Below the pieces are notes generated by a model. The model saw only the letters and a program-made list of their open reading frames with translations. It had not been told where the DNA came from and ran no database searches. DNA of 61,276 bases. Origin: Bacillota bacterium. GTDB lineage: Bacteria; Bacillota; Sulfobacillia; JAJZYS01; JAJZLH01. Location of the stretch: NCBI GenBank assembly GCA_021803575.1, contig JAJZLH010000019.1, forward strand, positions 1 through 61,276, read 5' to 3'. Below, piece by piece: positions 51,081 to 59,370 of this stretch. A program made the translations under genes and the position numbers. How positions within the stretch are numbered: position 1 is the stretch's first letter; every line of letters starts with the position of its first letter.

Positions 51081-54566
<3,486 letters not shown>

Positions 54567-54581: not shown

Positions 54582-58106
<3,525 letters not shown>

Positions 58107-58177
58107 CGGCAGGGTCCCTCCTTCAATTGCCGACAGGTATGCCCCGCCGGTCCGAAGCAAAGCAACATCAACTGCGA

Positions 58178-58206
58178 AGTATAACAAACCCACAAGGGGC
58201 GGTCAA
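58178..58206 (-). promoter_or_regulatory. Sigma70-type promoter for rpoBC
   Basis: TTGACC (58206-58201), 17-nt spacer, TATACT (58183-58178) with upstream TGT (extended -10). Confidence 0.8.
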
Positions 58207-58223
58207 TGCGCTGACCGCCCCTT
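58194..58223 (-). terminator. rplL-rpoB intergenic hairpin (terminator/attenuator or processing site), no U-tract
   Basis: AAGGGGCGGTCA-GCGCAT-TGACCGCCCCTT: 12-bp perfect stem, 6-nt loop. Confidence 0.7.
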
Positions 58224-58236
58224 ATCGTTGACGACC

Positions 58237-58653
58237 CTACTTGATGACAGCGACGGCGCCGACTTCCTCCAGCTTGGCCTTGGCGACCTCCGCCTCGTCC
58301 TTGGTCACCTTCTCGCGCACCGTCTTGGGAGCCGCGTCCACCAGGTCCTTGGCCTCCTTGAGGCCGAGGTTGGTCAGCTCGCGCACCACCTTGATCACCT
58401 GGACCTTCTTGTCGCCGACCTCGGTCAGGACAACGTCGAAGGCGGTCTGCTCCTCCTCGGCCTCCGGTGCCTGGGCACTGGCGCCGCCCCCAGCGGCTGG
58501 CGCAGCCTGGGCGACCGCCACCGGGGCTGCCGACACCCCGAACGTCTCCTCGAATCCCTTGACCAGATCTGAGAGTTCGAGCACGCTCAGGCCCTTGATC
58601 GACTCCAGGATGTCCTCCACCTTGGATCCCTTCTCCGCCGTCTTCGCCATCAT
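58237..58653 (-). CDS. rplL: 50S ribosomal protein L7/L12
   Basis: [68 protein letters not shown]. Confidence 0.98.
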
Positions 58654-58713: not shown

Positions 58714-59229
58714 CTAGGCGGCCTTCGCCGCCAGCTGGCCGAGGGCACGGGCGAGGCGGCTGACCGGCGCCTCCAGATCCTGGGCCAGGCGGGTCAGCGG
58801 TGCCTGCAAGGTCCCGGCCAGCTGGGCCAGCAGCACCTCCCGGCTCGGCAGGGAGGCCACCCGGCGGATGTCCTCCTCGCCCAGGACCCGGCCGTCAATA
58901 ATGCCGGCCTTGGCCTGGATCTCCCGCACCTCACGCCGGAAATCCGCCACCAGTCTGGCCGGCTCCACCGCATCGGCGAAACCGAACAGCACTCCGGTGG
59001 TTCCGGTCAGGAAGGGCTCCAGGCCCTCCACTCCTGCCGCCTCCGCCGCCCGTCTGAGCAGCGTGTTCTTGACCACCCGGAACTCCAGGCCCTGGGCGCG
59101 CACCTGGCTGCGCAGCCGGGTGGCCTGCGCCACGGTCAGGCCCTGGAAGGAGACCAGTACGGAGCCCTTGGCCCTTCCCAGCCGGTCGGCCAGATGCTGG
59201 ACCTCAGCCACCTTCTCGGCACGGGGCAC
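58714..59229 (-). CDS. rplJ: 50S ribosomal protein L10
   Basis: VPRAEKVAEVQHLADRLGRAKGSVLVSFQGLTVAQATRLRSQVRAQGLEFRVVKNTLLRRA; GTG start at 59229 after GGAGGTGGAGAT. Confidence 0.96.
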   Translation of the reverse strand: MPRAEKVAEVQHLADRLGRAKGSVLVSFQGLTVAQATRLRSQVRAQGLEFRVVKNTLLRRAAEAAGVEGLEPFLTGTTGVLFGFADAVEPARLVADFRREVREIQAKAGIIDGRVLGEEDIRRVASLPSREVLLAQLAGTLQAPLTRLAQDLEAPVSRLARALGQLAAKAA

Positions 59230-59340
59230 ATCTCCACCTCCAACAAAAACACCTTGGCCACAGCCAAGGCGAACAGTGCTCGCCTCGGCGGGGTTTACGG
59301 GGATTGCCCCCACCCGCTGTCTCGGGCCAGATAGCCTGAT
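59230..59340 (-). ncRNA. Ribosomal protein L10 leader-like cis-regulatory RNA
   Basis: CCGAGACAGCGGGTGGGGGCAATCCCCGTAAACCCCGCCGAGG followed by a terminator hairpin before the rplJ RBS. Confidence 0.7.
59242..59269 (-). terminator. Intrinsic terminator within the rplJ leader
   Basis: CCTTGGC-TGTG-GCCAAGG followed by TGTTTTTGTT. Confidence 0.75.
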
Positions 59341-59341
59341 T

Positions 59342-59370
59342 ACTTCATCACAGGCGAGGCGGGGTGTCAA
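59342..59370 (-). promoter_or_regulatory. Candidate promoter for rplJL
   Basis: TTGACA (59370-59365), 17-nt spacer, TGAAGT with upstream TGA (extended -10); weak -10. Confidence 0.5.

Follow-up and report, generated by a model that had tools for sequence, protein, structure and literature searches.

The 130-nt gap between rplL and rpoB in the stretch of DNA analysed here (61,276 nucleotides from a Bacillota bacterium, hereafter the window) contains a perfect hairpin and a housekeeping-type promoter that share bases. This fused anatomy is conserved in the genus and recurs in about 10 of the 47 families of the class that were surveyed. On balance, the arrangement is probably a 3'-end signal (an attenuator or a processing site) merged with the promoter of rpoBC, which would separate rpoBC from the L10-regulated rplJL; from the sequence we infer promoter activity, termination or processing of upstream RNA, and mutual interference between them.

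Hairpin and promoter between rplL and rpoB

The genome comprises 1.52 Mb, and its nearest named relatives are the Bacillota MAGs MAS3.bin149 and YP3.bin27. On the minus strand the order is an L10-leader-like RNA, rplJ, rplL, the 130-nt gap, rpoB and rpoC, with the following features:

59235..59344, minus strand: L10-leader-like RNA 5' of rplJ (Rfam RF00557, 40.5 bits, E 0.00078, just below the gathering score of 44 bits)
58714..59229, minus strand: rplJ (L10), from the ORF list, with a tblastn match of the same protein in the genus-mates; putative GTG start at 59229 from a reading of the N-terminus, the ORF running from 59370
58237..58653, minus strand: rplL (L7/L12), matched in 59 of 61 relatives
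58212..58223, minus strand: hairpin 5' arm AAGGGGCGGTCA, from the sequence, its core kept in G001 and G002
58206..58211, minus strand: hairpin loop GCGCAT, from the sequence
58194..58205, minus strand: hairpin 3' arm TGACCGCCCCTT, from the sequence and the fold (z = -4.15)
58201..58206, minus strand: -35 element TTGACC, from a consensus scan, at the same place in the genus-mates
58178..58186, minus strand: extended -10 element TGT-TATACT, from a consensus scan; TGT-TACACT in the genus-mates
58171..58173, minus strand: predicted transcription start region, placed from the -10 position
58107..58170, minus strand: rpoB 5' leader, short and strongly conserved, with AGGAGG, from the three-species alignment
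54582..58106, minus strand: rpoB from TTG 58106, a TTG conserved in the genus, with an in-frame stop upstream in G001
51081..54566, minus strand: rpoC, from the ORF list, named from inspection of the sequence

The original prediction was of a 12-bp perfect stem between rplL and rpoB, and this stem is present at 58223-58194 (minus strand). The 71-nt region around it folds at -31.6 kcal/mol against -19.5 ± 2.9 in shuffles (z = -4.15), and none of 200 shuffles folds as well; a chance inverted repeat is ruled out by this score together with the family chimera tests given below. The genome has a single copy of the core stem, which rules out a repeated genomic element, and no known RNA family in Rfam was matched at the hairpin site. 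The stem has the stability and GC-richness of a canonical intrinsic terminator, and a U-tract directly after it is absent, the tail reading GTGGGTTTGTTA in the window and ATCGGTTT and AGATCCGT in the genus-mates. A lax terminator scan (5 T in 8) listed the hairpin by counting the last stem bases. Because the tail lacks a U-tract, the element was not filed as a canonical intrinsic terminator, an assignment that is doubtful. The genome background, formed by 20 stretches (L199-L218) plus the window (308.6 kb), contained 20 perfect stems of at least 10 bp against 4-9 in simple shuffles. These strong hairpins, many of which may sit in coding sequence, are mostly devoid of a T-tract on either side, so that 3'-end formation in this genome may deviate from the usual U-tract rule.

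The promoter lies in the hairpin as had been proposed: the first T of the -35 TTGACC is the last loop base, the other five bases belong to the 3' arm, and a 17-nt spacer leads to TGT and TATACT (58183-58178). It had also been ranked among the best promoter matches of the window, and with its TG extension it scores 10/12, the second-best of four consensus hits. Since about three such hits are found in shuffles, a consensus match is by itself weak evidence. The hexamers, a spacing within 16-18 nt and conservation in relatives are those of a sigma-70/sigma-A promoter. The 308.6 kb contain nine further promoter-like sites, none of which lies inside a perfect long hairpin, and nesting is not seen there as a general property of the genome's promoters. 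The best match in the window, at 51073-51045 (minus strand; TTGACA-17-TAGAAT, 11/12), begins 8 nt past the rpoC stop and folds with rpoC coding sequence, forming no clean hairpin.

Both genus-mates keep a 10-bp core stem, the -35 element, the spacing and the extended -10 element (TACACT for TATACT), and hairpin and promoter are thereby conserved together, in agreement with the idea of one element. The short stretch from the rplL stop to the stem is nearly unalignable among the genus-mates. The 5' arm lies outside the promoter and yet is conserved, which indicates selection on the hairpin; no core-stem pair has changed on both sides among the three species of the genus. As for rpoB itself, AGGAGG stands about 10 nt before TTG 58106, and the TTG is conserved in the genus. 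In G001 an in-frame stop at codon -23 lies downstream of the equivalent of 58193 (codon -29) and closes the longer frame, which in the window would begin upstream of the predicted transcription start. TTG 58106 is the likely start of rpoB, as had been argued against 58193. All 16 third positions in the first 48 nt of rpoB (58106-58059) are identical in the three species, against an identity of roughly 0.25-0.75 in later 48-nt blocks of the gene, and the conserved leader together with these 48 nt may represent a second constraint at the nucleotide level. A possible pairing between the rpoB start codon and the conserved bases at the beginning of the transcript was assessed by eye and set aside as inconsistent.

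Distribution of the fused hairpin in the class

Upstream regions of rpoB were collected across the class (134 with an rpoB match), giving 132 usable promoters from 82 genera and 47 families, with the promoter anchor picked by a score that also rewarded a downstream TTGC-like motif. A TTGACN-17-TANNNT-like promoter precedes rpoB in nearly all 132 regions. This distribution bears on the reading that the hairpin is mainly a cleavage site for a double-strand RNase in a continuous rplJL-rpoBC transcript, the promoter being minor. The long perfect stem and the poor U-tail would suit such a site, and the E. coli rplJL-rpoBC RNA is both attenuated and processed, going by the title of Barry et al. 1980 as cited in PMC5371410; however, a promoter that stands before rpoB across 47 families, even where rplL is not adjacent, makes this reading very unlikely.

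The fusion of hairpin and promoter was measured by a chimera test, in which the fold interaction of the native upstream and promoter halves was compared with that of halves taken from other families. The window's family (f1) gave z = -7.6, none of 81 chimeras being as good as the native pair, and the family means of f4, f7, f9, f10, f13, f46 and f47 lay between -3.2 and -5.2. Means were -2.2 for f15 and only -1.1 for f14; one genus of f27 reached -3.0, and the remaining families showed nothing. In all, the -35 element and/or the spacer lies inside a hairpin of family-specific sequence in about 10 of the 47 families, strongly so in the first eight of those named and weakly in f14 and f15. At the family level the test over all 47 families was not significant (p = 0.38), and so the fusion is a minority trait and is rejected as a class-wide rule. 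Conservation in relatives, put forward as a check of the original prediction, therefore extends to the genus-mates and these families, while most of the 47 lack the fusion.

Mapped on the RpoB tree, and with f14 and f15 included, the trait has undergone at least eight changes, a rough number given that the tree was quick and has many weak forks; f10, f46 and f47 form one clade. The register also differs among families. The -35 element is in the 3' arm in f1, f4, f10, f46 and f47; it is in the loop, with the spacer as 3' arm, in f7, f13, f14 and f15; and in f9 it forms part of the 5' arm, with the spacer again as 3' arm. Elsewhere a separate hairpin was found no more than 110 nt upstream of the promoter in 47 of 55 genera, 17 of them with the hairpin within 15 nt, by a search with a cut-off of -12 kcal/mol and no shuffle control, some of whose hairpins lie in coding sequence. 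Since separate hairpins often end near the -35 element, the fusion appears to be one extreme of a continuum, the f9 register excepted.

Such a continuum might reflect passive compaction, hairpin and promoter sharing bases in a 130-nt gap without any effect on each other, and the 17 genera with hairpins ending within 15 nt of the -35 element speak for it. Against this stand the f9 register, which is unlike a simple slide, and changes in f10, f46 and f47, where several pairs have changed on both sides, -35 bases among them (TTGATC with GATC in f47; TTGACT with AGTC in f46 g66). The first spacer position shows five pair types in these three families, and native pairing exceeds cross-genus pairing (p = 0.003 by genus). 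These compensatory changes keep the stem even in -35 bases and argue that the hairpin is functional, without speaking for cross-talk; passive compaction is accordingly quite improbable. In f9 the stem is paired in 92% of cells, compared with 31-52% after sliding, and three changes on both sides are seen. Chimera tests within f9 and within f4 gave no consistent native advantage, and covariation in these two families thus rests on few changes.

The hairpin-promoter need not follow rplL. Most f9 genomes, and all six of the f4 genomes examined, have a different co-directional gene upstream of it, which looks dapA-like or DUF402-like from its translation and ends about 40-150 nt before the -35 element; the hairpin-promoter nevertheless stays with rpoB.

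Two further elements were observed in the class. In most families (e.g. L100, L014 and L068) a TTGC motif, frequently in the form YTGCYRT, starts exactly 6 nt past the -10 element, the anchor score having favoured a downstream TTGC-like motif but not the exact 6-nt distance. Long rpoB leaders (about 190-440 nt; f6, f21, f22, f27, f32, f36 and others) share a terminator-like element before rpoB, approximately CCAAAAGYG..GGCTTATAG..CRCTTTTGG followed by a T-rich stretch (e.g. L014, L053, L055 and L047), and good folding was seen in five examples (z -3.2 to -5.9). At E <= 0.5 the loci searched matched nothing in Rfam except L10_leader. The shared element is a candidate rpoBC leader attenuator and is absent from the window's genus.

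RNA hairpin or DNA operator

An inverted repeat over a -35 element could also be a DNA operator, the dyad being bound by a dimeric regulator that controls rpoBC. The overlap with the -35 element agrees with this, as do the fixed arm spacing within f9 and the fact that in f9 and f4 the dyad accompanies the rpoB promoter regardless of the upstream gene. Fixed half-site spacing and half-site sequence shared among relatives, as expected of an operator, were nevertheless not found. The arms differ in sequence, and the loops in length (3 to over 15 nt), from family to family and, within f10, from genus to genus; the position of the dyad centre with respect to the promoter is not constant; and the genome holds no second copy. 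Two comparisons also point to RNA. With symmetric scoring, G-U pairs outnumber A-C pairs 17 to 1, an excess that stands at about p = 0.05 once G/T-rich 3' arms are corrected for by hand. Folding energy favours the sense over the antisense RNA by 5.1 kcal/mol in 27 hairpin genera and by 1.35 in 55 others. Because related genera are not independent, both results are to be taken as leanings. An operator is an improbable explanation, and we favour, from the variable loops and these patterns of pairing, an RNA hairpin formed in upstream transcripts.

Known systems and a proposed mechanism

How ribosomal proteins and RNA polymerase are kept in balance has long been asked, and E. coli relies for this in part on a hairpin between rplL and rpoB. 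That hairpin is described in PMC4670729 as an attenuator. The window likewise has a hairpin between rplL and rpoB, at the position of the E. coli attenuator, where it would set ribosomal-protein expression apart from that of the polymerase subunits; unlike the E. coli element, as far as it is described there, it holds a nested promoter with the -35 element in the stem and is followed by a poor U-tract. Terminators that overlap or adjoin the promoter region of a neighbouring gene are known from the E. coli frd terminator/ampC attenuator and the B. thailandensis-type nlpD1-penA pair, and a promoter placed near a terminator disturbed termination (PMC6045580). In those two cases the promoter precedes the terminator, so that the latter turns into an attenuator within the leader, whereas in the window the predicted transcript starts past the hairpin and excludes it. 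Closer to the window are other families of the class (e.g. f8, f11, f21, f32 and f45), with the same succession of rplL, hairpin, TTGACN-17-TANNNT and rpoB; they differ in that the hairpin ends before the -35 element and, in several, is followed by a better T-tract. In the part of the literature covered, no promoter nested in a terminator at rpoB was found.

Under the proposed fusion of a 3'-end signal with a promoter, rplJL RNA entering the gap would fold into the strong hairpin, which would end the upstream transcript, attenuate it or mark it for processing. The DNA of the 3' arm and tail would carry a housekeeping promoter from which a separate rpoBC transcript starts just past the hairpin. 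In this way rpoBC would be separated from the rplJL unit autoregulated by L10, and the L10-leader-like element before rplJ provides a reason for such a separation. Polymerases arriving from upstream would have to stop on the rpoBC promoter or pass over it. Interference between the two processes is plausible in view of the E. coli attenuator and of the case of a promoter near a terminator (PMC6045580). It is conceivable, though unlikely, that the influence runs both ways, hairpin folding and upstream polymerase traffic setting access to the nested promoter and promoter occupancy setting termination, and that such a device arose several times. If so, the transcription of ribosomal proteins would have a built-in link to the synthesis of RNA polymerase.

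The hairpin and the rpoBC promoter share bases, and in the clade of f10, f46 and f47 the pairing survives changes in the -35 element. If the hairpin acts on upstream RNA, these loci would offer a clean system in which to test whether termination and initiation collide or exclude each other.
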